A stretch of 64,000 nucleotides of DNA, from assembly GCF_003991905.1 (NCBI RefSeq), contig NZ_RSCL01000026.1, positions 1-64,000 of the forward strand, given 5' to 3'. The translations under genes and the position numbers were made by a program. Below the pieces are notes generated by a model, which saw nothing but the letters and a program-made list of their open reading frames with translations, ran no database searches and had not been told where the DNA came from. Of the stretch, positions 1 to 64,000 are shown one piece after another. This stretch comes from Dulcicalothrix desertica PCC 7102 (GTDB lineage Bacteria; Cyanobacteriota; Cyanobacteriia; Cyanobacteriales; Nostocaceae). Every line of letters begins with the position of its first letter. Within the stretch, counting starts at the first letter, position 1.

Positions 1-11
1 ATAGCTCTCTT

Positions 12-52
12 GTTCCCCCCTTATTAAGGGGGGTTAGGGGGGATCAAAAATC
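12..52. repeat. Dispersed C-rich/G-rich palindromic repeat, copy 1
   Basis: A CCCCCCTTATTAAGGGGGG palindrome is followed by TTAGGGGGGATC. The same unit recurs at about 3424-3470, 3506-3537, 4626-4660 and 4716-4747. When read through as coding sequence it gives PPxPLNKGG. It is a dispersed intergenic repeat of a type common in filamentous cyanobacteria. Confidence 0.8.
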
Positions 53-110
53 TGCGTCAACACATCAAAACTAATGACACAGACTACTAGTAAAAATTTT
101 ACCGTGATTA

Positions 111-141
111 AAAGCCCCCGAAGAACGTATCGAGGGCTTGA
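111..141 (-). terminator. Hairpin terminator for the first DUF2887 gene
   Basis: On the minus strand an AAGCCCTCGA arm pairs with TCGGGGGCTT and is followed by TTTT. It sits just past the stop codon of the minus-strand nuclease gene at 154. A nearly identical sequence lies at about 2950-2980, after the collapsed third copy, so the terminator was duplicated with the gene. Confidence 0.65.
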
Positions 142-153
142 AAAATTGAAAAA

Positions 154-1032
154 TTAGATTGCGCGCGCGTCCAACCAAGGTTGTAAATCAGCAAAAGAAG
201 TAAAATCCAATAAATCCTCACTCAAAGTTTCGAGAGTAGGTAACGGTAAACTTTCTATTTGCGCGCGCATCTCCTCAGATAATTCCTGCCCAAACCGTTT
301 CTTCAAAAGACGGGCAATGAGATTAACTGCTTGTTCTTCTCGTCCTTCTTCTCGTCCTTCTTCTCGTCCTTCTTCTCGTCCTTCTTCTCTAGCTTCCTGA
401 TAAACTCGTGTTTGTTTAAGTGTTATGCCCAACATAGTATCTATATCCTTTCGACTTAATTTTTCAAACTTGCTAACCATTATCGATGTCACTATCTCAA
501 TTATGGCACCACTCAATGCTTCCGATTCTTGCTGTGAGCGTGAGAGTAAATATTTCGCTTCCGAAGGCGCCCTCTTTTTACTCAACGTAGTCAGAACCAT
601 TAATGCGACCCATATCGGGAGCTTGCGTATATTCCCTAGTTTATTCAAATATACTATATGCACTTGCCCGCCATTGAGAAACGAGCGATGTGGATGAAGA
701 TTACTTTGCTCTACACCCTTTGACGGATAAATTACAACGGCTTGCCAGTCACTAAATTTTTCGCGGTTGCGGTAGAAGTATATTGAGGATTCAGCAGTTA
801 ATCTTTCATATAACATCTCGTCCTTCTGGAATTGGACTTCGCAAAAATACACAGTTCCAGGTTGTTTGCTTTCGGGTGGCAAGAATATGCCATCAATTTC
901 AAATTTCGACTCTTTTATAACAACACTATCAAATCTGTAAGCGTCTGTATTGGGCGGTGGTGTCTTAAGTAATTCAAATAGTATCGATGGATATCGTTGG
1001 AAAAGTTCGTAAAATATTGAGTTTCGTTTCAT
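154..1032 (-). CDS. Rpn family nuclease, DUF2887/DUF4351 (copy 1)
   Basis: A 292-residue protein of the Rpn (recombination-promoting nuclease, PD-(D/E)XK) type, in the DUF2887 branch that is abundant in cyanobacteria. The N-terminal nuclease part shows the D of FEIDGIFLPP near residue 47 and the ExQ of YFCEVQFQ near 66-68, which fit the metal-binding core. A charged linker of repeated EEGR units follows near residues 215-235, encoded by a 12-bp in-frame minisatellite. The C-terminal 45 residues, ending in DLQPWL, match DUF4351. Rpn proteins cut DNA and have been linked to recombination and phage defence; the role here is inferred. It is a close paralogue of the next gene, about 75-80 % identical by eye, with the same upstream and downstream sequence, so this is a tandem duplication. 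Confidence 0.85.
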   Translation of the reverse strand: MKRNSIFYELFQRYPSILFELLKTPPPNTDAYRFDSVVIKESKFEIDGIFLPPESKQPGTVYFCEVQFQKDEMLYERLTAESSIYFYRNREKFSDWQAVVIYPSKGVEQSNLHPHRSFLNGGQVHIVYLNKLGNIRKLPIWVALMVLTTLSKKRAPSEAKYLLSRSQQESEALSGAIIEIVTSIMVSKFEKLSRKDIDTMLGITLKQTRVYQEAREEGREEGREEGREEGREEQAVNLIARLLKKRFGQELSEEMRAQIESLPLPTLETLSEDLLDFTSFADLQPWLDARAI

Positions 1033-1122
1033 TTATTCACCCTGGTAACAATATTTTTAGTATTCCGATACACAAGCCAAAGTTACGCGATTTCAGCACT
1101 TTACAGCTTAATAGCGCGAAAA

Positions 1123-2001
1123 TCAGATTACCCTCGTGTCCAACCAAGGTTGTAAATCAGCGAAAGAACTAAAATCCAATAAATCCTCTGTCAAATTTTC
1201 AAGATTAGGTAAGGGTAAACTCTCTAGTCGCTGGCGCATCTCTTCAGATAATTCCTGCCCAAATCGTTTCTTTAAAAGACGGGCGATGAAATTGACTGCT
1301 TGTTCTTCTCGTCCTTCTTCTCGTCCTTCTTCTCGCCCTTCTTCTCGTCCTTCTTCTCTAGCTTCTTGGTAAACTCGTGTTTCCTTTATTGTTATGCCTA
1401 ACATAGTATCTATTTCGTTTCTACTCAGTTGTTCAAACTTGTAAACCATTATCGACGTTACCACCTCAAGTACGGCGCCACTTGAAACTTCCGGTTCTTG
1501 TCGTGAGCGTTCGAGCAAATATCTTGCTTCTGTTGGCGCCACTGTTTCATTGAGCGTAGTCAACACCATTACAGCAACCCAAATTGGGAGTTTGCGAATA
1601 TCCCCTAGTTCATCTAAATAAACTCTATGTACTTGCCCGCCATTAAGATACGAGCGATGTGGGTAAACATTACTTTGTTCTACACTTTTCGATGGATAAA
1701 TTACAACAGCTTGCCAGTCACTGAATTTTGAACGGTTGCGATAAAAGTACAGATGAGATTCAGCAAAAAATTTTTCATATAACATCTCATCCTTCTCGAA
1801 CTGTGCTTCACAAAAATATACAGTTCCAGTTGTCTCGGTTGCTGGTGGCAATAATATACCATCAATTTCAAATTTTGGTTCTTTGACAGCGACACAATCA
1901 AATCTGTAAGCGTCTGCGTTTAATGGTGGCGTTTTGAGTAATTGAAATAGTGCAGATGGATATTGCTGGAAAAGTTTGTAAAATATAGAGTCTCGCTTCA
2001 T
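1123..2001 (-). CDS. Rpn family nuclease, DUF2887/DUF4351 (copy 2)
   Basis: A second 292-residue DUF2887 protein with the same layout as its neighbour: nuclease core with FEIDGILLPP and YFCEAQFE, an EEGR-repeat linker, then DUF4351 ending in DLQPWL. The E of the ExQ pair is kept. The product is probably a Mg-dependent DNA endonuclease (known for the family). The gap to the downstream copy is only 90 bp. Inside the gene an in-frame ATG (MVYKFEQLSR) is preceded by a GAGGTGG sequence about 11 bases upstream. That could allow a separate C-terminal product, as reported for some Rpn genes, but this is speculative. Confidence 0.85.
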   Translation of the reverse strand: MKRDSIFYKLFQQYPSALFQLLKTPPLNADAYRFDCVAVKEPKFEIDGILLPPATETTGTVYFCEAQFEKDEMLYEKFFAESHLYFYRNRSKFSDWQAVVIYPSKSVEQSNVYPHRSYLNGGQVHRVYLDELGDIRKLPIWVAVMVLTTLNETVAPTEARYLLERSRQEPEVSSGAVLEVVTSIMVYKFEQLSRNEIDTMLGITIKETRVYQEAREEGREEGREEGREEGREEQAVNFIARLLKKRFGQELSEEMRQRLESLPLPNLENLTEDLLDFSSFADLQPWLDTRVI

Positions 2002-2191
2002 TACCCTGATAATAATATTGTTTGCGCCTCAATAAGAGGATAAACTCAAGCTTTTTAAAGCTTTAATATTAATATATTACTATAAATAGTATTTAAACTT
2101 TAATTAATTATGACAGATATTGTACTGGCATAACTAGATTATTATGCTGTTTTAAATATGCTTTAAATGTGAAAAAATAATTTTCATTAGT

Positions 2192-2551
2192 TTACAATAC
2201 TAATGGCTGTTTACATTCAATATAGGCTATTAATACTATATTTTCTGGACACAATGCTACCGAGGCGTTTGATTGTTTTAATTTTTGTTCGATTTGACGT
2301 GCATAGTTTTTAGATATTATTGGTTCGTAAGAGCGGTAATAATCTTTTTTATATATATTTCTGTATATGCTCCACTTAGCTCTTGTTATTATTTGATATC
2401 TTTTAGCAAGGGCGCCTATATAATCGATAGGAACATTTTGCTCTGTCAACTCCTGTGCTATGTAACTACCTGCTGTACAAAGTCCTTGAAGGTTTCTTGA
2501 CCAGGATGTTTTGTTTAATACATCATATTCTGTAATATATGCAAGTTTCAT
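2192..2551 (-). pseudogene. Truncated family 4-like glycosyltransferase, N-terminal fragment
   Basis: 119 residues resemble the first third of a GT4-type glycosyltransferase: an MKLAYITEYD start, a YIAQEL helix, VDYIG-type spacing, and an end in IAYIECKQPLVL. In full-length proteins that last stretch continues into the donor-binding domain. Here translation stops directly and no downstream continuation is present in the following 190 bases. I infer a gene remnant left after deletion. It lies between Rpn copies 2 and 3, so it may have been cut by the rearrangement that copied them. It is unlikely to be active. Confidence 0.6.
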
Positions 2552-2574
2552 AATTGTTCAACAATACAAGTATA

Positions 2575-2668
2575 TTTCCCAAGCAGGCGCCGGGTATTGT
2601 TATTGTTCCCAAGTATTATTCCCAAACAGGCGCCGTGTAATGTTATTTTTTCCAAGTGGGCGCCGGAT
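2575..2668. repeat. Three short repeats, each centred on GGCGCC
   Basis: Three imperfect units of the pattern CCAAnnnGGCGCCGnnTAATG-TT occur about 42 and 35 bases apart. Each has the hexamer GGCGCC at its centre. The surrounding stretch from 2552 to 2984 has no gene that I can support. It also holds a C-rich/G-rich hairpin sequence at about 2690-2785 and the terminator copy near 2950-2980. Confidence 0.6.
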
Positions 2669-2984
2669 AATGATTGTTATATGTAAAAAACCTAACCCCC
2701 ATTCCAGAGTTCCCTTCAAGGAAAGGCAGAACAAATTTACTCTCCTCTCCTCGTAGGAGAGGGGTTGGGGGAGAGGTTCTTAACAGGCATGAAAAACAAG
2801 TTGATTGACCCTCTAACCAAGTTGGTAAATCAGCACGTTAATTTTATATCTCGCTCACGTAATTTATTTCCATAAATACGCTTTGTTCGCGGCTTGTAAA
2901 GCAAATTATAGAAACAACGGGCGCCTCTGCTTAAAATTTTACCCTTATTAAAAGCCCCCGAAGAACGTATCGAGGCTTGAAAAA

Positions 2985-3240
2985 TTAGATCGCCCGCGCG
3001 TCCAACCAAGGTTGTAAATTATCCAAAGATGTAAAATCTAATAAATCCTCACTCAAAGTTTCAAGAGTAGGTAACGGTAAACTTTCTATTTGCGCGCGCG
3101 CCTCTTCTGATACTTGCTGCCCAAACCGTAATACAATCAAAGCTGTAAGCGTCCGCATTTGCTGGTGGCGCCTTAAGTAATTCAAACAGTACAAATGGAT
3201 ACTGTTGGAAAAGTTTATAAAATATTGAGTCTCGTTTCAT
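2985..3240 (-). pseudogene. Rpn/DUF2887 copy 3, collapsed by an internal deletion
   Basis: The first about 39 residues (MKRDSIFYKLFQQYPFVLFE onward to SFDCI) and the last about 45 residues (FGQQVSEEARAQ to PWLDARAI) of a DUF2887 protein are joined near 3122-3132. The join is out of frame. About 190 codons, including the whole nuclease core and the EEGR linker, are missing. The upstream 150 bases (3241-3384) match the upstream region of copy 2, and the downstream hairpin matches copy 1. This was therefore a full third copy that lost its centre. Confidence 0.85.
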
Positions 3241-3423
3241 TACCCACCCTGGTAACAATATTGCTGATACCTCATTACAGAGGTAAAGTTCAAGTTTCTT
3301 AAAACTTTCATATAAATATATTACTCTGATTAAATATTTTAATTTTGAGCAATTATGACAGAAATAATACTGGCATAAACGCATAATTATATGATTGCAA
3401 ATATGATGTTTATATTAACAATA

Positions 3424-3537
3424 AATCCCCCCAACCTCCCTTAATAAGGGGGCTAAGAGGTGAGTCAAATTCTTTTATAATAAAGCGCTAAAATACCCTT
3501 ATTATCTCCCCCTTATTAAGGGGGGCTAGGGGGGATT
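3424..3537. repeat. Dispersed C-rich/G-rich repeat, copies 2 and 3
   Basis: Two copies of the palindromic repeat seen at 12-52 lie back to back, at about 3424-3470 and 3506-3537. The second one ends within a few bases of the stop codon of the following minus-strand glycosyltransferase. Confidence 0.75.
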
Positions 3538-3538
3538 T

Positions 3539-4525
3539 TCAAGGATAATTAACTTTGATATAACCAAAAAATGTACTCGTATCCGAAAGACGAGGAAATT
3601 TATTTAATAAGTCAGTTGCACTTTTTGGAGATAAAAACGACATCGCAGCTAGTTTTAATAAAGCTTTATATAATATTGGTTTAAATAGCAGAGTTTTATC
3701 ATATTTAACTGCTGTAACTAAAAACCTTACAGCAATTTTAGCATTATGTTGACCAGGTGGCGCCGAGAGTGCTTTATGACTAAGATATTTATATAGGTTT
3801 GCGATGCTAACTGATTTTAAATGCTGATACTGCAATGCTTTGGGATGTGCATAAGCTCGTTCAATAACTTGCAAGTTTGCTTTTTCTAGCCCCAATACAT
3901 TAGAAGACATAGAACTTGCAGAAATACGGTATAAAACTTGTACTTTTTTTACTACAACAAAATCACCTAATGCAGCTAAACGAAACCATAAATCAGTATC
4001 TTGCGCGTTAGAAAGCGAACCGTCAAAACCACCTACTTCTGTAAATGCTTCAGCACGTATCATCACATTTGAACCGCTTCCAATAAAGTCATCTAAAAGC
4101 AGTTGTGCAAAAACATCACTTGACCACGCTGCATGACTACATGGACGCAAAAATTTATCATTCTCATCTATCGCATCAGTAAAACTATAAGCCACAACAC
4201 TATTACTTTCCACTAAGGCATTGTACTGTGCTTCGAGCTTATCCGGCGCCCAAATATCATCAGCATCTAAAAAGCTAATAAATTTACCTAAACAATGTTC
4301 AAATCCACGATTACGATTAACTGCAACATTTGCTTTGGGATATGAGTATACACGAAGTCGAGAATCTTTAATTTGTGAAATTATTGAAAATGTAGAATCA
4401 GTTGATCCTGCGTCAATTACGATTAATTCAAAATCTGTTAAAGTTTGTTTTAATACACTATTAATTGTTCTTTTTATAGTTGTTTCGCCGTTATATACTG
4501 GAATTATTACTGAGACAATAGGCAT
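3539..4525 (-). CDS. Family 2 glycosyltransferase
   Basis: A 328-residue GT-A fold glycosyltransferase. The N-terminus (VSVIIPVYNGETTIKRTINS) is the classical nucleotide-sugar binding start. A DADD motif near residue 91 supplies the metal-binding DXD, and an acceptor-side WxRxA-like segment (DTDLWFRLAALGD) lies near 187. The C-terminal 100 residues are helical without clear membrane spans, so the enzyme is probably cytoplasmic or peripheral. It is probably involved in exopolysaccharide synthesis together with the HpsE-like enzyme next to it. The sugar and acceptor cannot be read from sequence. The stop codon directly abuts a dispersed repeat. Confidence 0.85.
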   Translation of the reverse strand: MPIVSVIIPVYNGETTIKRTINSVLKQTLTDFELIVIDAGSTDSTFSIISQIKDSRLRVYSYPKANVAVNRNRGFEHCLGKFISFLDADDIWAPDKLEAQYNALVESNSVVAYSFTDAIDENDKFLRPCSHAAWSSDVFAQLLLDDFIGSGSNVMIRAEAFTEVGGFDGSLSNAQDTDLWFRLAALGDFVVVKKVQVLYRISASSMSSNVLGLEKANLQVIERAYAHPKALQYQHLKSVSIANLYKYLSHKALSAPPGQHNAKIAVRFLVTAVKYDKTLLFKPILYKALLKLAAMSFLSPKSATDLLNKFPRLSDTSTFFGYIKVNYP

Positions 4526-4625
4526 ATAATATCAATTAAATAAAATATAATTGATATGCTAATTTGAATCAACTGCTAAACGGCTCAGTTAATTTGCGGA
4601 TTTGTTTGTGAAATTATTATATAAA

Positions 4626-4747
4626 AATCCCCCCTAGCCCCCCTTAATAAGGGGGGGACAGGACAATAAAGTATTTTTAGCTGTTATGAAGTAAGAGTAA
4701 AAATGAGCTATCTTAAGCCCCCCTTATTAAGGGGGGTTGGGGGGATT
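4626..4747. repeat. Dispersed C-rich/G-rich repeat, copies 4 and 5
   Basis: Two further copies of the palindrome lie at about 4626-4660 and 4716-4747. The second overlaps the 3' end of the HpsE-like gene and encodes its last residues. Confidence 0.75.
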
Positions 4748-5697
4748 AAACCCAGAATTATGTTCCTAAACAAATAAAATGGACTGATAAAAGTACCAAG
4801 TAGCCTTTCCATCTCACAAGCCACTAAAATATCACTTTCTATCACCTTATAATTACGGATAAAATACACCAATAACTTCCGAGAATCATTCAGTACATAC
4901 ACAAAAAAAGCAAAAGGTCTCTGCCAAGCATTGAGTAACAGCATTCTTAAATAAAACCGCGCTAACCCAACACCACGCATCAAATTAACTAAATAATTCC
5001 TTTCCAGGCGCCATGCCGGAATAACATGGTCAACTTCCATAGCTGGGTTATACCAAATTTCCCAACCAGCAGCATGAATATAAAACAAAGCCTCTGCATC
5101 TTCGCTACCTATCATCGAACCACCAACTCGACCCACTAAAAACAACTTCGCAGGCACATTATCTTTCCATGCATCCCGACGAACTACCAAACCTGCAGAT
5201 GGAGGAAACCCTTTACGGCGAGGTTCAAATACATGAGGTTTATCACCACGTTCGGTAATAGCTAAGTAAAAAAGCAGTGACTTCAAATTCTCTGGTGGTT
5301 CAACCTCAAAGTCTCCGTGAATTTGACTAGCAATAGCTCCTGCTAGAGGGTATTCCTGAATAAACTTATACGCCTCTAATATCCAAGTCTCATAAGGCAA
5401 ATTATCATCATCCAAAAACCCAACTATTTCCCCCTCTGCCTCTATAATCGCGCGCTGACGTGCATAAGCGGCGCCTTGTTCACATTCCAAACAATAACGC
5501 AACTGTGCCGGATGGCGCCAATTTTCCTGATACTCTTGAACTAACTTCGCCGTTCCATCACTACTATTATTATCAACAATAATTATTTCCCAACTCAGAT
5601 GCTCAACACCAGTCTGAATCTGTAATTTCTCCAACACCTCCGGTAAACGACAGGCACCATTATAAGTAGGGATAGCAACAGTAAAGTCAACAGTCAT
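4708..5697 (-). CDS. hpsE: HpsE-like hormogonium polysaccharide glycosyltransferase
   Basis: A 329-residue family 2 glycosyltransferase. The N-terminal FTVAIPTYNGA, the DNNSSDGT loop near residue 43, the GFLDDDN metal motif near 95 and the AGWEIWYNPAMEVDH block near 208 resemble HpsE of Nostoc punctiforme as I remember it. That enzyme helps make the polysaccharide secreted by gliding hormogonia. The C-terminus carries a short hydrophobic segment (FISPFYLFRNIILGLI). The final residues, PPTPLNKGGLR, are translated from an inserted dispersed repeat, so the natural end was probably replaced. The enzyme is most likely membrane-associated on the cytoplasmic side. It could instead be a paralogue within the hps set. 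Confidence 0.7.
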   Translation of the reverse strand: MTVDFTVAIPTYNGACRLPEVLEKLQIQTGVEHLSWEIIIVDNNSSDGTAKLVQEYQENWRHPAQLRYCLECEQGAAYARQRAIIEAEGEIVGFLDDDNLPYETWILEAYKFIQEYPLAGAIASQIHGDFEVEPPENLKSLLFYLAITERGDKPHVFEPRRKGFPPSAGLVVRRDAWKDNVPAKLFLVGRVGGSMIGSEDAEALFYIHAAGWEIWYNPAMEVDHVIPAWRLERNYLVNLMRGVGLARFYLRMLLLNAWQRPFAFFVYVLNDSRKLLVYFIRNYKVIESDILVACEMERLLGTFISPFYLFRNIILGLIPPTPLNKGGLR

Positions 5698-5798
5698 AAT
5701 ATCAAGGCATAAGTCCTATAACTCTAGTATGCCCAGTTCTAATTGTGAAATTTCCATAACTTTATCTGATTTAGGTTTGTAGTAGTGTATTAATGGGT

Positions 5799-5832
5799 CT
5801 ACAGTAATTGTCCGGTGGTGATGGCAATTACT
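5799..5832. repeat. Inverted repeat / hairpin
   Basis: ACAGTAATTGTC and GGCAATTACTGT form an 11 of 12 bp stem with a 10-base loop. It lies between the HpsE-like gene and the end of the next minus-strand gene. It may end transcription of the latter, but there is no clear T tract. Confidence 0.55.
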
Positions 5833-5851
5833 GTATTAACCCGCCCTTACT

Positions 5852-6844
5852 TTAAACGCGCGCGAGCCAGTTCTTTAAATCCGTAATTGAATTAAAATTT
5901 AAGTGCGCTTTGATCAAATCATCTAAGCGTTGTGTAGAAAGACCTTGAATACGTTCCCGCTGACCTTGACTTAAGTTCCCTAAACGAGATTCAAGTAGGA
6001 ACAGAGCTACGGATGCAGCATGTTCTTGCTTACCTAGTTGTCTACCTAGTTCTGTGCCTTCTTCCCTACCTTCTTCCCTACCTAGTTGTCTACCTATTTG
6101 TATACCTTCTTCCTTACCCTTCTCTATACCTTTTTCCATCCAGCTAGTAACAATTTCCATAACTTGCTCCTTCTGTTTTGGTTCTATGGTAGCAATTTGT
6201 TGATTAAACATTTCTTCCTCCTCTGTATTTAGTTTAAGGTAAGTATCGATAAATACGGAGATTTGATTAACTAACGCTTGATTTAAGCCTAATGAGGCAA
6301 GTAACTGTAGTGATACTAACTTTACCGTTGGACGTTCGTTAGCATCCATCTGCATTTTCGACATCAAAGCGCTTGCAACAGGGTTTTGGATATTCGCAAA
6401 GTCTTGCCAGTTGAGTTGATTTAACTGAACTACTTCATAATCAAACTGTATGACACTTTTGCCTCTCACACTGATGTTGAAAGACGATGGTTGCTTGGTC
6501 ATCGGTACATCATGAGAGAAGATGATAATTGGCAATATTGGAACACCATTCAGCTTATACAAATCAGCATAGTAACAAAACATACGTTCACCCAAGTCTT
6601 TTGGGATATAAGACTGATGCTCGATGTGTATAATAAATAGCGTTTCCTCATTTTGATATTTCGCTTGGACTAATATATCTACAATCTTTTTATCACCTTT
6701 CCTCAAATCTGTAAGTATCTCTTGTGGTAAAAATGTTATAGAGTCTTTATCCAAAACACTACTGATATCTGGAAAGAACAATTCAATAAACTCAGGAAAG
6801 AAATTTTGAATTAACTTCTTAAATAAGCTATCGTGGTCAATCAT
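5852..6844 (-). CDS. Rpn-like PD-(D/E)XK nuclease with DUF4351
   Basis: A 330-residue protein starting at the ATG at 6844 (MIDHDSLFKKLI), which matches family starts. An upstream extension of 33 hydrophobic codons is unlike the family and I left it out. The nuclease core shows D near residue 55 (KKIVDILVQAKY) and IHIEHQ near 72. A linker rich in KGKEEG, GRQLGREEG and GTELGRQLG units follows, then a C-terminal DUF4351 block ending in DLKNWL. It is a distant relative of the DUF2887 proteins to its left and shares their overall plan of nuclease, charged glycine-rich linker and DUF4351. Role in recombination or defence is inferred. Confidence 0.8.
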   Translation of the reverse strand: MIDHDSLFKKLIQNFFPEFIELFFPDISSVLDKDSITFLPQEILTDLRKGDKKIVDILVQAKYQNEETLFIIHIEHQSYIPKDLGERMFCYYADLYKLNGVPILPIIIFSHDVPMTKQPSSFNISVRGKSVIQFDYEVVQLNQLNWQDFANIQNPVASALMSKMQMDANERPTVKLVSLQLLASLGLNQALVNQISVFIDTYLKLNTEEEEMFNQQIATIEPKQKEQVMEIVTSWMEKGIEKGKEEGIQIGRQLGREEGREEGTELGRQLGKQEHAASVALFLLESRLGNLSQGQRERIQGLSTQRLDDLIKAHLNFNSITDLKNWLARV

Positions 6845-7011
6845 GAACTCAATTCCACTTTTTGTGCAACCTGGATAGTACGCAATTATCAAACATAGAA
6901 TATTCAATATACAAATTATTTTAGTAAGTCTTAATAATTCCAATTATCTAGGCATTGCCCATACATATAGAGGCGCCTAAACAACTATTTTCACCAAAAA
7001 TAAACAATCGT

Positions 7012-7041
7012 AAAAAACCCGCCTTTTACTGAACGGCAGGT
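7012..7041 (-). terminator. Rho-independent terminator
   Basis: On the minus strand ACCTGCC pairs with GGCGGGT and is followed by a run of T. It lies about 30 bases past the stop codon of the minus-strand gene at 7069. Confidence 0.6.
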
Positions 7042-7068
7042 ATCTGGCAATAATTTTTAGTATAAACA

Positions 7069-7314
7069 TTAATCAGCGATAACCTTTACTGATTTAATGC
7101 CTGTACTGCATTTTTGAATCAAAAGCCATTTTTTGGCATCTTTATCTAGGGTAGGTAAAACGCGGAAATTAAAAACATCTTGCCATGTTTCGGCGCCGTG
7201 TGTATTAACAAAATCCCACTCCATTGCATTAAACTGTTCGTAGTCCCGGTCACTAATAGCCGTAAACATTGGGATTACTGCGCTTAGTGGTATTTGTGTT
7301 GCTGTCTCACTCAT
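7069..7314 (-). CDS. Small conserved-type unknown protein
   Basis: An 81-residue soluble protein that I do not recognise. It is acidic-neutral, has a WDFVNTHGAETWQDVFNF core and no membrane span. It starts 11 bases after the stop codon of the ribbon-helix-helix gene on the same strand, and a terminator follows, so the two form a two-gene unit. That layout resembles a small regulatory or toxin-antitoxin pair, but no toxin fold is visible. Confidence 0.55.
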   Translation of the reverse strand: MSETATQIPLSAVIPMFTAISDRDYEQFNAMEWDFVNTHGAETWQDVFNFRVLPTLDKDAKKWLLIQKCSTGIKSVKVIAD

Positions 7315-7325
7315 CTAAATAACCC

Positions 7326-7553
7326 TCATCCAGTTTCCCTGTTTTTGTGTCGTTCTTTGTACTCATCAATTGATTTTTTAGTTAGGGCTAACACCAGTCC
7401 TGCGACAGTGCGATATTCGCGTTCTGCCCAGTCTTTTAAGACTTCGTACTCTTCATCACTGACTCGGATAGTTATAGACGGTTTTTTAGATGGCACGTTA
7501 TGACACTCAACAATAAATGCTGCACGACATCTATTATTATCTAGCTTTATCAC
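7326..7553 (-). CDS. Ribbon-helix-helix (CopG-like) DNA-binding protein
   Basis: 75 residues from the first possible start. The segment PSITIRVSDEEYEVLKDWAE is a CopG/Arc-type beta strand and first helix, followed by YRTVAGLVLALTKKSIDEY as the second helix. A GTG codon at the V of NVPSKKPSITIRV, preceded by a GAGTG sequence, would give a 56-residue protein and looks the more natural start. It is probably a homodimeric repressor. The next gene follows after 11 bases. Three copies of a 15-bp direct repeat lie 300-420 bp upstream and are possible binding sites. Confidence 0.7.
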   Translation of the reverse strand: MIKLDNNRCRAAFIVECHNVPSKKPSITIRVSDEEYEVLKDWAEREYRTVAGLVLALTKKSIDEYKERHKNRETG

Positions 7554-8202
7554 AAATCCTTCCAGTCACTTGCATTTCTTTGCACTTTACTAAAATTGAC
7601 TTAGAGTATTAAGAGGTGAACACCTGTTGATGATTATAACACCATAGCCAACTTGTGCAATTGCCACTCACGGAACGGCGCCTTTCGGTTATCTCAATTT
7701 TCTGTAGTAGATGGCGCCAGTATTTGCAGTTTCTTAGCAGCATGGTTGTTTGATGGTTATGAAAATTGTTGATTGGCTTACTAAATTTCAAGTAGCAATA
7801 TATACTCAATTTTGAAATACAATTATTATGCGCTATTTTTTCAAACTCACTTCCGCTATTTTCTTAACCTTAGAAGCTGTAAAGCCTATTATCTCGTAGA
7901 GAGGTCAATTTTTTAGCTACAAATTGCCTTTTTCACTTCCGCTATTTTGTCAAACCCACTTCCGCTATTTTTCCAACCCAAAAGCCACAACCCTTAATTT
8001 ACCGTAGCACATTAAAGTTGATAATTTTTTCATACTGACTTATATAATTAGATCTATTGTAATAAATTACACTTTTGCCTAAGTCTTTTTTACTAAATTA
8101 CTGTTATTGTTTAAAGGTTTGTATGTTGGGTGAAGGCACAGAGTACACGAACAAAATATAAAATTATGTTGGGTTCTGTTCCTCCACCCAACCTACGAAT
8201 AA
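7554..8202. other. Gene-poor AT-rich stretch with direct repeats
   Basis: No supported gene lies here. The stretch holds two GGCGCC sites near 7677 and 7712 and three copies of CACTTCCGCTATTTT, listed separately. It also holds a weak inverted sequence (TTGGGTGAAGG against CCACCCAAC) at about 8127-8195, near the end of the fic gene. The rest is AT-rich without visible structure. Confidence 0.5.
7848..7972 (+). repeat. Three direct copies of CACTTCCGCTATTTT
   Basis: Perfect 15-bp copies start at 7848, 7934 and 7958, and a half copy (CGCTATTTTT) lies at 7831. The spacings are 86 and 24 bp. They resemble iterons or operators and lie upstream of the ribbon-helix-helix gene. Confidence 0.7.
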
Positions 8203-9333
8203 TTATGATGCTGTCATTTTGAAGCACGTTTCAATCCATTCTGAGGCAAGTATATAGCTACGGACTCTTTCACCTGAACCCGTTGTAACCGCATTCACAA
8301 AGCCTTCCTCTGCCCACTGTTTAAGCCATTCGCGTGCTGTACGTTCAGAAACACCGAACCAAGAGTCAATATCTGAGGAATTAATAACAAAGGGATTTTC
8401 TAAGCCGTCAAGAACTCGCGCTAAAAGTCTTGTCAGAAGTTGCTGCGATGTTCTTGGTAATCTTTCCCAAGGTGGTATTTCAGGGGCACCTGCTCTATAA
8501 AGTGTTCTGGCTTTAGCTTGTAATTCCTCTGCAGCGCTAGCCATTGTCTCCACAAAATACAGTATCCAAGGAGTATGGTCTGGGTTATGGCGCCCATCAT
8601 AAAAATCTACAGGCAAACCCATTTGCAAATTATTATAGTAACGTTCGCGGTCAGCATTAAAATACTCATCAAAAGAGAAAAACCCCCGCATCCTATAACC
8701 AGAACGCCAAAGTTCCGCAGTTGCCAACAGTCTACCTGTACGACCATTACCATCGTTAAAAGGATGAATGCTTAAAAAACGATGTGTAAGAATAGCGGCA
8801 CGAATAGGAGCAGGCAAGTTAATAGCAGTTATAGAAGACAGCCATTCAACTAGTTCACGCATTAATACAGGAACATCTTCTGGTGTAGGAGGTGCATAAT
8901 CAATTTTTCGCGTCACAGTATCAACTACTGGACACTCTGTAGTACGATACTCACTTTTGCTTCCCCTTCGTCCACTCCTGGTGACAATTACAATTCGATG
9001 TAACTCTTTTATAAATACTTCTGTAATAGGCGCCTGTGCATCTGCAAATTGTTCAACCCTATCAAGCGCGCGCCAATAATTACGAACTTCTTGCTCTGCA
9101 TTACTTCCAGTACGGTCGCTACGAGCTATTGCCCGCCTAACCTCAGCATCATCCAAAGGGTTCCCCTCAATTCGAGTCGAACTGCGTGTACTTTTTTGTA
9201 CAGCATCATGACGCAACTGCAAAGCGCTATCAGGTGGAAGAGGTAATACTTCAACAACAGCACGTGCTGCTTCAATAGTTCCTAGATGCTTTACTAATGC
9301 GTTACAATAATTAAAGCGTGGTTCAAAAACCAT
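8203..9333 (-). CDS. Fic domain protein (probable AMP-transferase)
   Basis: A 376-residue Fic/DOC protein. The catalytic motif HPFNDGNGRTGR begins at residue 190 with all key residues present. The STRIEGN motif near residue 52 is the S/T-xxx-E-G/N inhibitory helix placed N-terminally (class II), so activity should be self-restrained. The last about 70 residues look like a winged helix (WFGVSERTAREWLKQW), as in many Fic regulators. Family members transfer AMP from ATP to target hydroxyls; the target is unknown. The gene is the last of a three-gene minus-strand unit, 42 bases after the HIRAN gene. Whether the three proteins cooperate is an inference from the layout. Confidence 0.9.
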   Translation of the reverse strand: MVFEPRFNYCNALVKHLGTIEAARAVVEVLPLPPDSALQLRHDAVQKSTRSSTRIEGNPLDDAEVRRAIARSDRTGSNAEQEVRNYWRALDRVEQFADAQAPITEVFIKELHRIVIVTRSGRRGSKSEYRTTECPVVDTVTRKIDYAPPTPEDVPVLMRELVEWLSSITAINLPAPIRAAILTHRFLSIHPFNDGNGRTGRLLATAELWRSGYRMRGFFSFDEYFNADRERYYNNLQMGLPVDFYDGRHNPDHTPWILYFVETMASAAEELQAKARTLYRAGAPEIPPWERLPRTSQQLLTRLLARVLDGLENPFVINSSDIDSWFGVSERTAREWLKQWAEEGFVNAVTTGSGERVRSYILASEWIETCFKMTAS

Positions 9334-50586: not shown

Positions 50587-52329
50587 TTATCGTTCGTCAG
50601 TTTTTGCTGCTATTGATGGATATGGTTCGTCAGGGTCTGCCCGTAGTACAGAGTTTGTGCCTGCCGATGTTAGTGGGTCACCGCTTTCCATCGGTACGCC
50701 GTATTTGGCATTTTCTAAACCGTAGTCGTAGGGACCTGTTGCTAATACAGGAATTCCTTCAAAATTCTCAATTGCTGGTGGCGAAGTTGTCATCCACTCT
50801 AGGGTGAGACTTCTCCAAGGGTTGTCACCTGCTTTTTCGCCATACAACCAACTCCAAGCCATGTTAACAATAAAGGGCAAGGTTGAGATAGCAAGAAGAT
50901 AAGAACCGTAAGTGCAAATTTCGTTTACTGATGTAAATTTTGGGTCGTACTGAGCAATACGACGGTTCATACCCATCAAACCTAGTTTGTGCATGGGTAA
51001 GAAGGTCATGTTCAAACCAACAATTGTTAAGGCAAAGTGAACTTTACCCCAAAACTCGTTGAACATCCGTCCGGTCATTTTGGGGAACCAATGATAAATT
51101 CCTGCGAAAATGCCGAGAACGCTACCACCAAATAATACGTAGTGAAGGTGGGCAACTACAAAGTATGTATCGTGAACGTGAATATCAAATGGTACAGCCG
51201 CAAGCATTACACCACTGATACCACCAATAACGAATGTACCAACAAACCCCATAGCAAAAAGCATTGGAGTGTTGAGTTGAATTTTACCGCCCCACATTGT
51301 CGCCAACCAGCTAAATATTTTGATACCAGTAGGTACGGCGATAATCATGGTGGTAATCATGAAAAACATCCGTAACCAACCTGGAATACCACTGGTAAAC
51401 ATGTGGTGCGCCCAAACTATTAATCCAAGGAAGCTGATAGCTAAACTTGAATAGGCAATAGCTTTGTAACCAAATATTGGCTTACGCGCGTGGGTAGGAA
51501 TAATTTCGGAGATAGCCCCAAAGAAGGGCAAAATCATAATGTATACGGCTGGGTGGGAGTAGAACCAAAACATGTGCTGGTAAACTACTGGGTCACCACC
51601 ACCCGTAGGATTAAAAAATGTCGTTCCGGCAATTAAGTCAAACGACAGCAAAATTAAACCTGCTGCTAATACTGGGGTAGAAACTAATACCAATGCCGAA
51701 GTTGCGAGCATTGCCCAGCAAAATAATGGCATTTGGTGGAAACCCATTCCCGGTATACGCATTTTGAGCAGCGTTACAAGGAAATTAATCGCCCCTAAAA
51801 TTGACGATGTTCCCAGTAACAAAACGCTCAAAATCCAAATCATTTCCCCTACCTGCCCTGTAACTAGTGACAGTGGGGGGTATGAAGTCCAGCCTGCATC
51901 TGGTGCGTCTCCGACAGCTAAACTACTAATCAGTAGCAAACCGCCTATAGGAATCATCCAAAATGCAACAGCGTTGAGACGCGGGAATGCCATATCTTTG
52001 GCGCCAATCATTAGGGGTATTAAATAATTGGCAAATCCGGCGCCGACAGGCACAATCCACAAGAAAATCATGATTGTGGCGTGCAATGTAAATAAGCTGT
52101 TATACAGTTCTGGGCTGACGAAATCGCTTTCTGGAGTTCGCAACTCGGTACGAACCAAGTCAGCCATTACCCCACCAATACAATAAAAAATGAAGCTGGT
52201 AACAATGTACTGAATACCAATAACCTTATGGTCGGTGCTAAAGGTGAAAAACTCCCACCATTTTCTAACACCAGGTTCTTCAATCTTTGCTGGAATATTC
52301 GCAGCTTCCTGAATTTTTGCTTGTGCCAT
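50587..52329 (-). CDS. ctaD: Cytochrome c oxidase subunit I
   Basis: 580 residues with twelve membrane spans. Heme and copper ligands are visible: TLHATIMIFLWIVP (low-spin heme His), WFYSHPAVYIMILP (CuB His with the cross-linking Tyr), AHHMFTSG (two CuB His) and VAHLHYVLFGGSVLGIFAG (heme a and a3 His). It is the aa3-type oxidase that reduces O2 to water and pumps protons; in cyanobacteria it is in the thylakoid and plasma membranes. Second gene of its operon, 42 bases after ctaC. Confidence 0.98.
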   Translation of the reverse strand: MAQAKIQEAANIPAKIEEPGVRKWWEFFTFSTDHKVIGIQYIVTSFIFYCIGGVMADLVRTELRTPESDFVSPELYNSLFTLHATIMIFLWIVPVGAGFANYLIPLMIGAKDMAFPRLNAVAFWMIPIGGLLLISSLAVGDAPDAGWTSYPPLSLVTGQVGEMIWILSVLLLGTSSILGAINFLVTLLKMRIPGMGFHQMPLFCWAMLATSALVLVSTPVLAAGLILLSFDLIAGTTFFNPTGGGDPVVYQHMFWFYSHPAVYIMILPFFGAISEIIPTHARKPIFGYKAIAYSSLAISFLGLIVWAHHMFTSGIPGWLRMFFMITTMIIAVPTGIKIFSWLATMWGGKIQLNTPMLFAMGFVGTFVIGGISGVMLAAVPFDIHVHDTYFVVAHLHYVLFGGSVLGIFAGIYHWFPKMTGRMFNEFWGKVHFALTIVGLNMTFLPMHKLGLMGMNRRIAQYDPKFTSVNEICTYGSYLLAISTLPFIVNMAWSWLYGEKAGDNPWRSLTLEWMTTSPPAIENFEGIPVLATGPYDYGLENAKYGVPMESGDPLTSAGTNSVLRADPDEPYPSIAAKTDER

Positions 52330-57854: not shown

Positions 57855-57899
57855 TCTTTATAGGTACTGTCTTCAGGAACGTGACCCAACAAAAATCCC

Positions 57900-59737: not shown

Positions 59738-59788
59738 TGTAGAGACGCAATTTATTGCGTCTATATTGCGTATATATTGCGTCTCTAC
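59738..59788. repeat. AGAGACGCAA hairpin repeat, extended
   Basis: GTAGAGACGCAATTTATTGC with GTCTATATTGCGTATATATTGCG-type continuation and GTCTCTACG at the end. A longer member of the dispersed AGAGACG hairpin family. Confidence 0.65.
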
Positions 59789-59877
59789 GTGAATATAATT
59801 TTTACGATTTCTCAAGAACTGCGATAAAAAAGCATAAATATGCTAATTGTGTTTTATTGTTTGAGTGAATCATCAGA

Positions 59878-60549: not shown

Positions 60550-60565
60550 AAACAAAATCACTCAG

Positions 60566-60952
60566 ATGGCGCCACCTATTTACAAAAATCAAAATAATAC
60601 TACTGTTCTTTATCGTCCCGTTGGGCAAAAAGAATTAGATTTGATTCAAGAAAGTGGTTATACAACCTTTCCAGCAAGACTTCCTCATCAACCTATTTTT
60701 TATCCTGTACTTAACGAAGAGTACGCTATTCAAATAGCTAGAGATTGGAATACTAAAGATAAAGCATCTGGTTACGTAGGATATGTGACTCGCTTTCAAG
60801 TTAAAAGTGATTTTTTACAAAGATATACTGTACAAACTGTAGGTGGTTTGCAACACCAAGAGTATTGGATACCTGCTGAAGATTTAGATAATTTTAATAC
60901 TCACATTGTCGGTAAAATTGAGGTAATTGCTGAGTTTAGGAATGAAGAGTAG
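60566..60952 (+). CDS. Unknown protein, 'ADP-ribosylation/crystallin J1'-type annotation
   Basis: 128 residues. The pattern LYRPVGQKELDLIQESGYTT, PARLPHQPIFYPVLNEEYA, YVGYVTRFQV and HQEYWIPAEDLDNFN recalls a small cyanobacterial family often labelled ADP-ribosylation/crystallin J1. The label is not proof of activity. The H/R ... E layout is loosely like an ADP-ribosyltransferase, but I cannot identify a catalytic triad. It lies between DUF1345 and a GNAT gene and may be co-transcribed with DUF1345. Confidence 0.55.
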   Translation: MAPPIYKNQNNTTVLYRPVGQKELDLIQESGYTTFPARLPHQPIFYPVLNEEYAIQIARDWNTKDKASGYVGYVTRFQVKSDFLQRYTVQTVGGLQHQEYWIPAEDLDNFNTHIVGKIEVIAEFRNEE

Positions 60953-61006
60953 AAGAACGAAATATTTTTTCGTTAAAATAGTTTTTTAGCGTGATGTGAT
61001 TATTAT

Positions 61007-61570
61007 ATGCTGCTAAAAACTGACGAAATTTCGATTCGTCTCATGCAAGATAATATGCATGACTATGAGTTGATGGCAAAGTGGTTAACTGATGAGAAGG
61101 TTTTGGAATTTTTTGAAGGTCGAGATAATCCTTTTCCACTTGAACGAGTTATTGAGACCTATCAACCAACTGTTTGTGGTGAAGATGCTGAAGTTGCTTG
61201 CTTTATCTACTACCAAAATCAGCCTATTGGTTACTTACAATATTGTGCTTTAGATGAATTAACACAAGCGGATAGGGAAACTTACAACTTGGAAGATACG
61301 AGTGGGGTGTATGCGATAGATTTGTTTATTGGCGAAACTGAGTATTGGAATCAAGGCATTGGTAGTAGAGTTATATCAAAGCTTGTTGACTATTTATTTA
61401 ATGAACTCAACGTGCGAAGAGTTGTCGTAGACCCAGAAACTTGGAACACACGTGCTATTCATTGCTACGAAAAATGTGGGTTTGTAAAAGTGAAACTGCT
61501 ACCCAAACATGAATTGCATGAAGGTGAGTATCGAGATTGCTGGTTAATGGCAATCAACAGGAATAAATAA
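61007..61570 (+). CDS. GNAT N-acetyltransferase, AAC(6')-like
   Basis: 187 residues. Core motifs are VYAIDLFIGETEYWNQGIGS (strand 4 and the Q-x-x-G-x-G acetyl-CoA loop), RVISKLVDYLFNE and TRAIHCYEKCGFVKV at the C-terminus. The start (ISIRLMQDNMHDYELMAKWL) fits the Acetyltransf_8 / aminoglycoside 6'-N-acetyltransferase group. Relatives acylate aminoglycosides or siderophore-type amines; substrate here is unknown. No antibiotic-resistance context is visible. Confidence 0.8.
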   Translation: MLLKTDEISIRLMQDNMHDYELMAKWLTDEKVLEFFEGRDNPFPLERVIETYQPTVCGEDAEVACFIYYQNQPIGYLQYCALDELTQADRETYNLEDTSGVYAIDLFIGETEYWNQGIGSRVISKLVDYLFNELNVRRVVVDPETWNTRAIHCYEKCGFVKVKLLPKHELHEGEYRDCWLMAINRNK

Positions 61571-61619
61571 GTACACTAAATAGTAGACCCATGCGCGCCC
61601 TTAACACCACATTTGACAA

Positions 61620-62813
61620 ATGTCTGAACAATCTGCACGAATTTGTATACTAGGTGGAGGTTTTGGCGGTCTTTATACCGCTTTACGCCTCAGCCAGTTA
61701 CCTTGGGATAATAACCAAAAGCCTGAAATTATCCTTGTTGACCAAAGCGACCGCTTTTTATTCTCTCCGTTATTGTACGAACTATTGACTGGAGAGTTAC
61801 AAACTTGGGAAATTGCACCCCCTTTTGCTGAACTACTGCAAAATACAGGTGTACGTTTTTGCCAAGCTGCTGTATCTGGAATTGATGTTGACTCAAAAAG
61901 TATTCACTTACATGATGGTCCCGAAATTAAATGTGACCGTTTAGTTTTGGCATTAGGTGGTGAAACTCCGCTTGATATGGTACCAGGAGCAACATCTTAT
62001 GCCTATTCATTCCGTACAATTACAGATGCATATCGTCTAGAAGAACGTTTACGCATTTTAGAAGAATCTGATAAAGATAAAATTCGTATCGCTATTGTCG
62101 GCGCCGGTTATAGCGGTGTGGAGTTAGCGTGTAAATTATCTGATAGACTTGGCGACCGAGGAAGATTTAGATTAGTTGAAGTCAGCGACCAAATTTTACG
62201 CACTTCTCCCGAATTTAACCGCGAAGCAGCGCAAAAAGCTTTAGAAAAACATGGAGTCTTTCTCGACCTCGACACCAAGGTAGAGTCTATTAGCCAAGAT
62301 AGCATCACCCTTGAATATAAAAATCAACTTGATACTATTCCTGTTGATTTGGTAATTTGGACTGTAGGGACAAGAGTGGCGCCTGTAGTTCGTGGTCTTC
62401 CTTTAAAGCAAAACCAACGCGGTCAAATTATCGTTGAACCAACTTTACAGGCGCCTGACTATCCTGATATTTTTGCTTTGGGTGATTTAGCTGAATGTCA
62501 CGATGCTCAAGGACAAAGAGTTCCAAGCACCGCTCAATCTGCTTTCCAACAAGCTGATTATACTGCGTGGAATATTTGGGCAAGTTTAACAAATCGTCCA
62601 TTGTTACCTTTCCGTTACCAACCATTAGGCGAAATGATGACGTTGGGTGTTGATAATGCTACCCTCACAGGATTAGGTATTAAACTTTCTGGACCACTTG
62701 CTAATATTGCCCGTCGTGCAGCTTATTTATATCGAATGCCTACATTAGACCACCAGTTAAAAGTTGGTTTCAACTGGCTCGCTCGTCCTATTATTGAAGT
62801 ACTTTCAAGTTAA
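61620..62813 (+). CDS. ndbB: Type II NADH dehydrogenase family, NdbB-like (demethylphylloquinone reductase)
   Basis: 397 residues. FAD-binding ICILGGGFGGLYTALRL at the start, and NAD(P)H-binding RIAIVGAGYSGVELACKL near 158. The second FAD motif DIFALGDLAE lies near 283. The blocks FLFSPLLYELLTGELQTWEI and PFRYQPLGEMMTLG match Synechocystis NdbB (slr1743) as I remember it, which reduces demethylphylloquinone in vitamin K1 synthesis. It could also act as a general NAD(P)H:quinone reductase. Peripheral membrane protein. Confidence 0.75.
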   Translation: MSEQSARICILGGGFGGLYTALRLSQLPWDNNQKPEIILVDQSDRFLFSPLLYELLTGELQTWEIAPPFAELLQNTGVRFCQAAVSGIDVDSKSIHLHDGPEIKCDRLVLALGGETPLDMVPGATSYAYSFRTITDAYRLEERLRILEESDKDKIRIAIVGAGYSGVELACKLSDRLGDRGRFRLVEVSDQILRTSPEFNREAAQKALEKHGVFLDLDTKVESISQDSITLEYKNQLDTIPVDLVIWTVGTRVAPVVRGLPLKQNQRGQIIVEPTLQAPDYPDIFALGDLAECHDAQGQRVPSTAQSAFQQADYTAWNIWASLTNRPLLPFRYQPLGEMMTLGVDNATLTGLGIKLSGPLANIARRAAYLYRMPTLDHQLKVGFNWLARPIIEVLSS

Positions 62814-62814
62814 T

Positions 62815-62843
62815 CCCCCAACCTCCCGAATTTCGGGGGGTTA
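62815..62843 (+). terminator. Hairpin after ndbB
   Basis: CCTCCCGAATTTCGGGGGG forms a stem of about seven base pairs, followed by a short T-containing stretch. An AAGGAG ribosome site for the next gene lies directly after it. Confidence 0.5.
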
Positions 62844-62860
62844 TAAGGAGTAAAATTGCT

Positions 62861-63253
62861 ATGCCTTCACCTTTTCCAGGGATGAATCCTTACTTAGAAA
62901 ATCCCGCATTTTGGTCAGAATTTCATAACCTTTTAATTTCATCGATTTCTCAAACACTAAACCCAATATTAAGACCTAAATATCGAGTTGCTATAGAACA
63001 GCGAGTATATCAAACAACTGATGGAGATTCTCTTTTAGTTGGCGTTCCAGATGTAGCGGTGCAAAGTCACCAAACTGCAAATAATCAGGAAACAGGGAAT
63101 GTTGCTGTTGCTTCTCCTCCTACTCAAGCGGTTACTGTAACTATCCCAATGCCAGAAAGAGTACGAGAGACTTACTTGGAAGTGCGGGATGTTGCAACAA
63201 AGGAAGTAGTAACAGTTATTGAAGTATTATCTCGTGACGACTCCACACGCTAA
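62861..63253 (+). pseudogene. DUF4058 gene cut by the IscB element
   Basis: 130 codons from the ATG give the usual DUF4058 start (MPSPFPGMNPYLENPAFWSE) and run to VVTVIEVLS, where relatives continue with PTNKR and another 100 or more residues. Here the frame runs into foreign sequence (RDDSTR) and stops at 63253. The break is at about 63230-63240. DUF4058 is a nuclease-like (PD-(D/E)XK-related) cyanobacterial family of unknown role. The remaining part is expected beyond the IscB element outside the window. Confidence 0.8.
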
Positions 63254-63538
63254 CTGCTTGCAGTATAGCGTCGGCTTCTAGAAGGAAACTTTTAGAGGTT
63301 CGTCATTAGCCTCAGTATTCCGTAATGCAAGGGATACTACGTTTATTCAGAATGTATAGGCACTCCAGAATGTAAGGGGTAGCGCCCTGTCTTATAGTTT
63401 TGGACACTGCGGTTAGCGATTAAACATCCCTACTTGGTAGAGGGGAAGTGTTGCTGACAAGAAACCTGGGTAAACATTGGCGAAGAAGACCACCCACGAG
63501 GGATGAACTTTTTATTAGTTCAATTACAAACAACGAAA
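63232..63538 (+). ncRNA. Probable omega RNA (HEARO-type) region of the IscB element
   Basis: About 300 non-coding bases between the broken DUF4058 frame and the iscB start. They include several short complementary segments and end in GACAAGAAACCTGGGTAAAC, then ACCACCCACGAGGGATGAA. IscB systems are known to be preceded by a structured omega RNA, first described as HEARO RNA, in just this position. In those systems the guide is read from the flank at the 5' end, which here would be DUF4058 sequence. Exact ends were not determined. Confidence 0.65.
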
Positions 63539-64000
63539 ATGAAAGTATTAGTTATCAACAAACATGGGCAACCCTTAATGCCCACATCACCCCGGAAAGC
63601 AAGGTTACTTCTATCTTCAGGAAAAGCCAAAATTGTTGGACGTGACCCTTTTACAATCCAATTAATTTACGGTTCTAGTGGTTACAAGCAAGAAGTAACG
63701 CTTGGAATTGATGCTGGTTATCAACATATCGGATTTAGCGCGATTACTGAAAAGGAAGAATTAATCGGCGGAGAATTGGAATTATTAGATGGTGTATCAG
63801 AACGTATTACTGAACGTTTTAAGTACCGCAGACAAAGAAGAAATAGATTAAGACATCGCGCACCAAGATTCGATAACCGCACACGGGAGGAAGGATGGTT
63901 AACTCCATCAGTCCAACATAAACTTGATACCCACATCAAAATCGTCGAACGTATTAAATCAATATTGCCAGTAACGAAAATTATCATTGAAACAGCAAAC
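63539..64000 (+). CDS. iscB: IscB RNA-guided nuclease (5' part, runs off the window)
   Basis: 154 codons from the ATG at 63539 without a stop. The start MKVLVINKHGQPLMPTSPRK, then ARLLLSSGKAKIV is the PLMP domain. RuvC motif I is TLGIDAGYQHIGFSAI near residue 60. An arginine-rich bridge helix follows (FKYRRQRRNRLRHRAPRFDN, near 98-118), and RuvC motif II is KIIIETAN at the window edge. These mark IscB, the ancestor-like relative of Cas9 carried by IS200/IS605-type elements. The HNH domain and motif III lie outside. All visible catalytic residues are present. Confidence 0.88.
   Translation, partial: MKVLVINKHGQPLMPTSPRKARLLLSSGKAKIVGRDPFTIQLIYGSSGYKQEVTLGIDAGYQHIGFSAITEKEELIGGELELLDGVSERITERFKYRRQRRNRLRHRAPRFDNRTREEGWLTPSVQHKLDTHIKIVERIKSILPVTKIIIETAN

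Follow-up and report, generated by a model that had tools for sequence, protein, structure and literature searches.

GGCGCC as the probable alternate highly iterated palindrome of Dulcicalothrix desertica PCC 7102 and its Calothrix relatives, with a predicted orphan GRCGYC-type methyltransferase

HIP1, the highly iterated palindrome (HIP) GCGATCGC, is a GC-rich sequence found about once per 600-1,000 bp, with accompanying GATC and CGATCG methyltransferases. Its purpose is a long-standing open question; it is reportedly maintained by selection (Xu et al. 2018, as cited in PMC6604393). In Calothrix PCC 7103, HIP1 is replaced by GGCGCC and two GRCGYC-type methyltransferases are encoded (Elhai 2015, PMC4390886); the available text of that paper proposes a repair ratchet directed by G-m5C (m5C, 5-methylcytosine) and describes exceptional HIPs as sporadic and not persisting in clades. 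GRCGYC is also the specificity of the BsaHI, HgiDI and HindV restriction-modification (R-M) systems. In the part of the source available, M.BsaHI methylates the central C of GRCGYC, and the family name RE_HindVP denotes the nuclease grouped with BsaHI, HgiDI and HgiGI (PMC2413257). A GRCGYC motif is described for H. influenzae Rd by RIMS-seq (PMC8565308, available part); in 2015 the base methylated by enzymes of this specificity was given as unknown, which can therefore be updated. Here, the GGCGCC sites of D. desertica PCC 7102 (G000) are analysed from a window of 64,000 bp, the first 64 kb of contig C26 (G000:C26:1-64000), and the gene L004 is put forward as encoding their predicted orphan methyltransferase.

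Within the window (39.3% GC) GGCGCC occurs 122 times, once per 525 bp, where Markov models of order 0, 1 and 2 expect 3.7, 5.8 and 5.4 copies, and it is the commonest of all hexamers; the maximal-order model expects 60, a figure fed by the motif's own 5-mers. HIP1 is absent (0.3-0.5 expected). Density is 2.08 per kb within open reading frames (ORFs) of at least 100 codons and 1.23 per kb outside them, the three reading frames hold 52, 24 and 30 sites, and the flanks are variable, with 3' C and 5' G under-used and otherwise no clear extension. The whole genome (11,419,637 bp, 109 contigs) contains 19,393 copies, one per 589 bp or 1,698 per Mb, and a single copy of the reversed pattern CCGCGG, while HIP1 is found 58 times in 11.42 Mb against 62 for its own reversed control. 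A 464-kb sample (the window plus 20 stretches of 20 kb; 38% GC) holds 788 copies against 32.9 (order 2) and 22.7 (order 0) expected, a 24-fold and a 35-fold excess, making GGCGCC the most over-represented palindromic hexamer, at 1.05-2.45 per kb in all 21 stretches. In a 480-kb stretch the density is 1.84 per kb in ORFs and 1.14 outside. The sequence-only reading of the window had counted about 120 copies, one per about 530 bp and far above chance, in genes and between them, had seen no HIP1, and took GGCGCC for the iterated palindrome standing in place of HIP1, on the precedent of replacements in other cyanobacteria. The observations are confirmed and the interpretation is supported: genome-wide, GGCGCC does not fall to the Markov expectation and HIP1 is not frequent elsewhere, and the precedent proves to be PCC 7103 itself (Elhai 2015, PMC4390886, available part).

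Spacing between sites is approximately random, except that too few pairs lie within 50 bp (2.7-3.7% vs 7.3-8.3% expected). Such pairs occur at less than half the random-placement frequency in G000 contig C4 and in the genomes G387 and G366.

The distribution of GGCGCC was followed in seven genomes of the genus, namely G000, G377 (PCC 7103), G387 (PCC 7716), G366 (NIES-4105), G294 (FI2-JRJ7), G354 (C42_A2020_038) and G332 (HK-06), in a family set of 145 genomes (these seven and 138 others) and in an order set of 271. All seven genus members carry 7,475-20,380 copies (1,150-1,711 per Mb), while the other 138 family genomes carry 0-1,053 each, at most about 111 per Mb, and sister loci of similar GC lack the enrichment. 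HIP1 is reduced to 31-163 copies per genome in the genus (3.6-23 per Mb); the count for PCC 7103, 163 in 11.6 Mb, equals the 14 per Mb published for that strain. The remaining family genomes have 1,117-8,803 HIP1 each, with the exceptions of G288 (535), G337 (30 in 3.2 Mb) and G338 (990). D. desertica thus has what marks an alternate HIP, a density in the range of about 1,000-2,000 per Mb, low HIP1 and an encoded predicted methyltransferase; the motif is not HIP1 itself, as GCGATCGC is not over-represented. The sporadic occurrence reported in 2015 was an observation and not part of the definition, and it does not describe this genus, which is positive throughout. GGCGCC is best read as the alternate HIP of the whole Calothrix genus, stably inherited through speciation.

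Outside the genus, some dense genomes were considered and set aside. G059 is the only one of the 271 order genomes denser in GGCGCC than G000 (9,489 in 3.8 Mb); it also has little HIP1, with 2 copies in 92 kb. It was not accepted as an independent second case: it looks like codon or composition bias, the 92-kb sample being about 53% GC, with 96 of 189 sites lying within CGGCGCCG; near-miss words are common there too, among them CAGCGCCG and CGGCGCTG. Its excess is probably compositional; that the assembly is mixed, or that G059 has an alternate HIP of separate origin, is less favoured. Three genus-mates of G059 have 304-343 copies each. G116, third densest at about 1,075 per Mb, was rejected, having 66% GC and falling below the order-2 expectation in 52 kb. 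In G288 (10.7 Mb) HIP1 stands at 50 per Mb, and 33 kb of it contain one GATC of 115 expected and no GGCC of 43; no replacement palindrome is apparent in those 33 kb and the genome has no GRCGYC enzyme match, so that HIP1 has been lost there without a visible successor.

Conservation of individual sites was followed in alignments of G000 contig C4 with PCC 7716 (94% identity, 218 kb), NIES-4105 (86%, 153 kb) and PCC 7103 (92%, 83 kb), and of PCC 7716 with NIES-4105 (86%, 235 kb); the comparisons share genomes and are hence not independent. From G000, 350 of 388 GGCGCC sites are conserved in PCC 7716, 207 of 275 in NIES-4105 and 115 of 137 in PCC 7103, against 75%, 53% and 65% for other all-GC hexamers. 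The excess persists when the expectation is taken from how well the same codons are conserved away from GGCGCC, with ORFs called simply as the longest of at least 100 codons: 320 ORF sites are conserved against 194 expected (n=350) in PCC 7716, 194 against 64 (n=255) in NIES-4105, 105 against 66 (n=127) in PCC 7103, and 302 against 112 (n=392) between PCC 7716 and NIES-4105. It is present in each of the three frames. Non-ORF sites, in small numbers, point in the same direction (30/38, 13/20 and 18/30 conserved vs 72, 41 and 40% for other hexamers). When every hexamer with at least 40 sites is treated alike in three pairs, GGCGCC ranks first by both z and ratio among 1,788, 1,127 and 2,050 hexamers, whose median ratio is 1.05-1.07; the runners-up mostly overlap GGCGCC, and CGCGCG is the main independent one.

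The protection is confined to the six bases. Within GGCGCC, substitutions reach 0.21, 0.39, 0.43 and 0.41 of expectation in four comparisons, while one nucleotide away they stand at 1.03, 1.17, 1.22 and 0.75 and at 2-3 nt at 0.97, 1.35, 1.33 and 0.82. The fourth comparison, G000 with PCC 7103, stays at 0.75-0.84 at most distances within 30 nt. Ratios more than 1 kb from sites disagree (1.32, 0.62, 0.86 and 0.33). Because protection stops at the hexamer edges, selection on the site, or a bias that restores exactly the site, is favoured over a repair field of about 1 kb. The hexamer is strongly supported as the unit, as the sequence-only reading suggested. Meanwhile, G000 and PCC 7716 share 234 sites in the gain-loss comparison, and a further 48 are found in only one of the two; with NIES-4105 as outgroup, the site is present at 30 of these, the alternative at 2 and a third state at 16. 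The set of GGCGCC sites is near steady state or slowly losing members, not growing.

The methyltransferase domain PF00145 is found in 13 stretches of the D. desertica genome, representing 11 genes, one of them truncated, and the nucleases adjoining several of these m5C genes belong to the TdeIII, Bpu10I and BsuBI/PstI families and, in two cases, to the Eco29kI family. A GRCGYC enzyme was sought through loci of the RE_HindVP nuclease (PF09519), a family present in 47 of the 271 order genomes; this profile search found no member in G000. At 29 of 30 such loci the adjacent ORF is closest, among the 11 m5C genes, to L004, at 54-67% identity, with two of these matches resting on fragments, and L004 is accordingly predicted, from this kinship, to be a GRCGYC-type m5C methyltransferase. 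Its PF00145 domain scores 219 bits. The alignment of its group shows what we take to be the PCQ, ENV, QSRKR and GNAVP motifs, and a target-recognition core, [TI/TV]R[SG]VNRP, is common to the 10 rows aligned. Homologues (E<=1e-60) occur in 44 of 145 family genomes, including all seven of the genus, none of which carries a RE_HindVP nuclease, leaving the enzyme an orphan. Six of the seven genus homologues are full-length, and the same upstream ORF accompanies five named loci as well as that of G000; in HK-06 the counterpart is seen only as contig-end fragments (pieces 96% and 95% identical) and a separate full-length extra copy has altered motifs. Further copies with about 56-63% identity, not all of them complete, are found in G377, G294, G366, G387 and G332. 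G000 and G354 gave one match each at E 1e-60 and no second copy, leaving a second GRCGYC methyltransferase unsupported as a requirement.

Ratios of nonsynonymous to synonymous substitution (dN/dS) between L004 and five orthologues are 0.05-0.15. In a tree for which 50 of 64 loci gave a row (two motifs were demanded, and G332 dropped out), the six genus rows form one clade (Shimodaira-Hasegawa approximate likelihood-ratio test, SH-aLRT, 100) nested in a 99-supported group with R-M enzymes of sister genera. This placement points to descent from an R-M system whose nuclease is gone. By homology to M.BsaHI, the enzyme would methylate the central C of GGCGCC (GG-m5C-GCC). The sequence-only reading had also expected a matching methyltransferase, and this is supported as a prediction: the predicted enzyme covers GGCGCC, and its predicted specificity is less strict than GGCGCC. 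Among differing sites the central C>T/G>A change is the commonest single one (35/53, 16/20, 22/44 and 32/78), and codon-matched ratios for central against outer transitions show a modest excess (0.30/0.21, 0.85/0.17, 0.46/0.37 and 0.54/0.34). Such a deamination fingerprint was rejected as proof of methylation and lends it weak support only: the raw excess is large, but in frame 0 it approximates codon-specific rates, since outside sites, too, GGC->GGT changes occur at about double the rate of GCC->GCT.

Compared with the described systems, D. desertica shares with PCC 7103, itself a member of the genus, the motif, the near absence of HIP1 and a GRCGYC-type methyltransferase. Unlike the 2015 account of that strain, the present one covers seven genomes with inheritance through speciation and conservation at hexamer resolution, places the orphan enzyme among R-M enzymes, and includes two genomes with a single copy. 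The likeness to HIP1 lies in density and in being a GC-rich palindrome; the sequence is different, HIP1 is near background in the genus and the putative CGATCG enzyme is missing. The methyltransferase is of the same family as those of the BsaHI, HgiDI and HindV systems, with neighbours of RE_HindVP as its closest kin, but the nuclease is absent from all seven genus genomes and GGCGCC is over-represented rather than scarce.

Three features coincide in the genus. One is the GRCGYC enzyme without its nuclease. Of the 37 family genomes outside the genus with an L004 homologue, 29 also have RE_HindVP, and these contain 0-81 copies of GGCGCC, at most 12 in 26 of the 29. This scarcity is not proof of restriction, because low counts also occur in genomes with neither gene. 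The second is the lack of a group of m5C genes (L218-L221) that is found in all four HIP1-rich genomes scanned; in G000 nothing exceeds about 36% identity to it. The L220 group is present in 130 of 145 family genomes and missing from the seven of the genus and eight others, a distribution from which it is probably the CGATCG methyltransferase. The third is a DpnII-family nuclease gene preceded by a Dam-family gene, present in all seven genus genomes at 88-97% identity to that of G000, with GATC at about 8-18% of expectation in four large samples. All three together are seen only in the genus, DpnII having been looked for in 11 genomes.

On balance we think it fairly probable that GGCGCC is the alternate HIP of the genus, that the methylatable hexamer is the unit that is kept, and that the orphan methyltransferase is its predicted partner. 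An ancestor would have lost the GRCGYC nuclease, leaving the methyltransferase orphaned, and would also have lost its CGATCG methyltransferase, while a DpnII-type GATC system may have purged GATC and therefore, we infer, HIP1. GGCGCC would then have taken over the job done by the methylated HIP1 site in relatives. Less certainly, the site might now be held by selection on the methylated hexamer, as a mark that a factor for repair, strand discrimination or chromosome maintenance reads. Alternatively, a bias that restores exactly this site might hold it; general mismatch repair directed by methylation across about 1 kb would be disfavoured as the mode of maintenance. A bolder version, in which selection keeps the methylatable hexamer GGCGCC as a functional mark across the genome, orphan methyltransferase and site replaced the HIP1 system as a unit, and CGCGCG is a second such mark, is conceivable but falls somewhat short of probable.

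Several observations weigh against this account. With 30 apparent losses, two clear gains and 16 undecided cases among the 48 variable sites, nothing suggests that sites are actively accumulating. Repair biased exactly to the site would mimic selection, and the ORF calls behind the codon-matched test are simple. The specificity of the orphan enzyme is assigned by homology, and the CGATCG assignment of the L220 group by distribution alone. Furthermore, eight non-genus genomes have the enzyme without the HindVP nuclease and show 3-277 GGCGCC with HIP1 at about 329-1,027 per Mb, the eight non-genus genomes lacking the L220 group keep HIP1 at about 384-969 per Mb, and DpnII is also found in the HIP1-rich G325 and, by homology, G277. 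In G326 and G350 an orphan GRCGYC enzyme coincides with absence of the L220 group, yet HIP1 is kept and GGCGCC is low, so that the orphan enzyme and L220 loss together are insufficient. DpnII, loss of the putative CGATCG enzyme and orphan status were each rejected as a sufficient cause on such counter-examples. The seven positive genomes are one lineage; the correlation therefore amounts to one event, from which the cause is not readable.

The rival with most to recommend it is the ratchet of Elhai, in which GRCGYC methylation biases G-m5C-dependent mismatch repair and GGCGCC accumulates to about one per kb with the sequence itself unselected. It fits the association of enzyme and site, it requires a methylated central C such as M.BsaHI produces, and 95-97% of bases have a site no more than 1 kb away. 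In 480 kb there are 822 copies against 25 expected while the other GRCGYC members are scarce (GACGTC 4 of 63 expected, GGCGTC 8 of 40, GACGCC 14 of 40), the pattern predicted if the ratchet ends at GGCGCC. A 1-kb repair field would, however, spread protection, whereas three of the four comparisons show none at 1 nt or farther from the site, and the strong conservation is seen at saturation, where the bias in the published text no longer makes new sites (PMC4390886, available part). The sporadic HIPs without clade persistence that the same text describes are contradicted by this genus, and the second enzyme copy, thought possibly critical, was not found in G000 or G354. We regard the ratchet as unlikely, though it has to be taken seriously. 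That another enzyme of G000 partners GGCGCC is decidedly improbable: there are 11 m5C genes, of which L003, L005 and L006 have a scanned neighbour that matches no nuclease family, while for L009, as for L004, no neighbour was scanned, and CGCGCG is over-represented too with no enzyme assigned. Yet the genes paired with GRCGYC-type nucleases find their best match in L004 alone, and counterparts 68-78% identical to L003, L005 and L009 occur in HIP1-rich genomes.

A signal for DNA uptake, or one belonging to phages or mobile elements, would likewise be a short dispersed sequence intact over speciation; the palindromic form, the want of a flanking consensus and the presence of GGCGCC where HIP1 has been lost, together with a methyltransferase of fitting type, make this a very remote prospect. 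Codon usage or base composition alone, through common GGC-GCC (Gly-Ala) and related codon pairs, deserves practically no credence. Frame 0 (GGC|GCC) is indeed the commonest, with 408 of 724 ORF sites in the 480-kb stretch, and ORF density exceeds that outside, but the excess over the order-0 and order-2 models arises at 38% GC, all three frames and non-ORF DNA carry the motif, sister loci of like GC do not, and conservation is above the codon-matched expectation in every frame. Composition and codon bias are rejected for G000 by the composition counts, the codon-matched test and the all-hexamer control.

The kind of element and the motif are already known: the literature search met GGCGCC together with Calothrix only in Elhai 2015, while Xu et al. 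2018 may treat GGCGCC. As far as that search shows, the genus-wide inheritance, the base-exact maintenance, the R-M descent and the counter-examples to single conditions are new. A genus that has swapped the word while keeping density and base-exact conservation separates a need for this sequence from a need for a methylated palindrome about every 600-1,000 bp. If GGCGCC is indeed a selected mark, the role would need a dispersed, methylated, GC-rich palindrome and not the HIP1 sequence, and a reader protein must have accommodated the switch or changed along with it. With seven genomes, including PCC 7103, PCC 7716 and NIES-4105, the swap is directly testable.

Table 1. Positions of the GGCGCC field, example sites and the predicted methyltransferase gene
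Feature	Coordinates	Strand	Basis
Field of dispersed GGCGCC sites (alternate HIP), n=122, no GCGATCGC	1..64000	.	122 vs 4-6 expected
First GGCGCC of the window (example)	566..571	.	motif count
GGCGCC in the close group 52000, 52039, 52430, 52570, 52844, 52870 (example)	52000..52005	.	motif count
Last GGCGCC of the window (example)	62450..62455	.	motif count
L004, GRCGYC-type m5C methyltransferase (predicted)	G000:C4:441733-442671	minus	kinship with HindVP-paired enzymes

CGCGCG (and GCGCGC) is a second over-represented palindrome of the genus. The window has 41 overlapping copies of CGCGCG, the first at 162, 262 and 2995, and genus loci (L081-L085, L097 and stretches of G387 and G366) have 55 in 121.5 kb (6.6 expected at order 0) and 23 in 74.9 kb (2.8 expected); three Calothrix outgroup loci have none in 57 kb, and HIP1-rich relatives have two in 132 kb. 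Observed against codon-expected conservation of CGCGCG is 35/15.9 and 68/31.3 for NIES-4105 and weaker, 57/45.6, for PCC 7716.

In the 464-kb sample a number of palindromes are nearly absent, with 34-158 expected at order 2: TGCGCA, GTGCAC, GTCGAC and CCATGG do not occur, and TTCGAA and GAGCTC occur once each. G000 seems to hold, or once to have held, many R-M systems. Two Eco29kI-family R-M pairs are located on C62 (L010) and at G000:C4:342.9-344 kb (L012); we take this family to be that of a CCGCGG enzyme, and CCGCGG is the pattern found once in 11.42 Mb. An ORF with pPIWI_RE domains adjoins the pair on C62.

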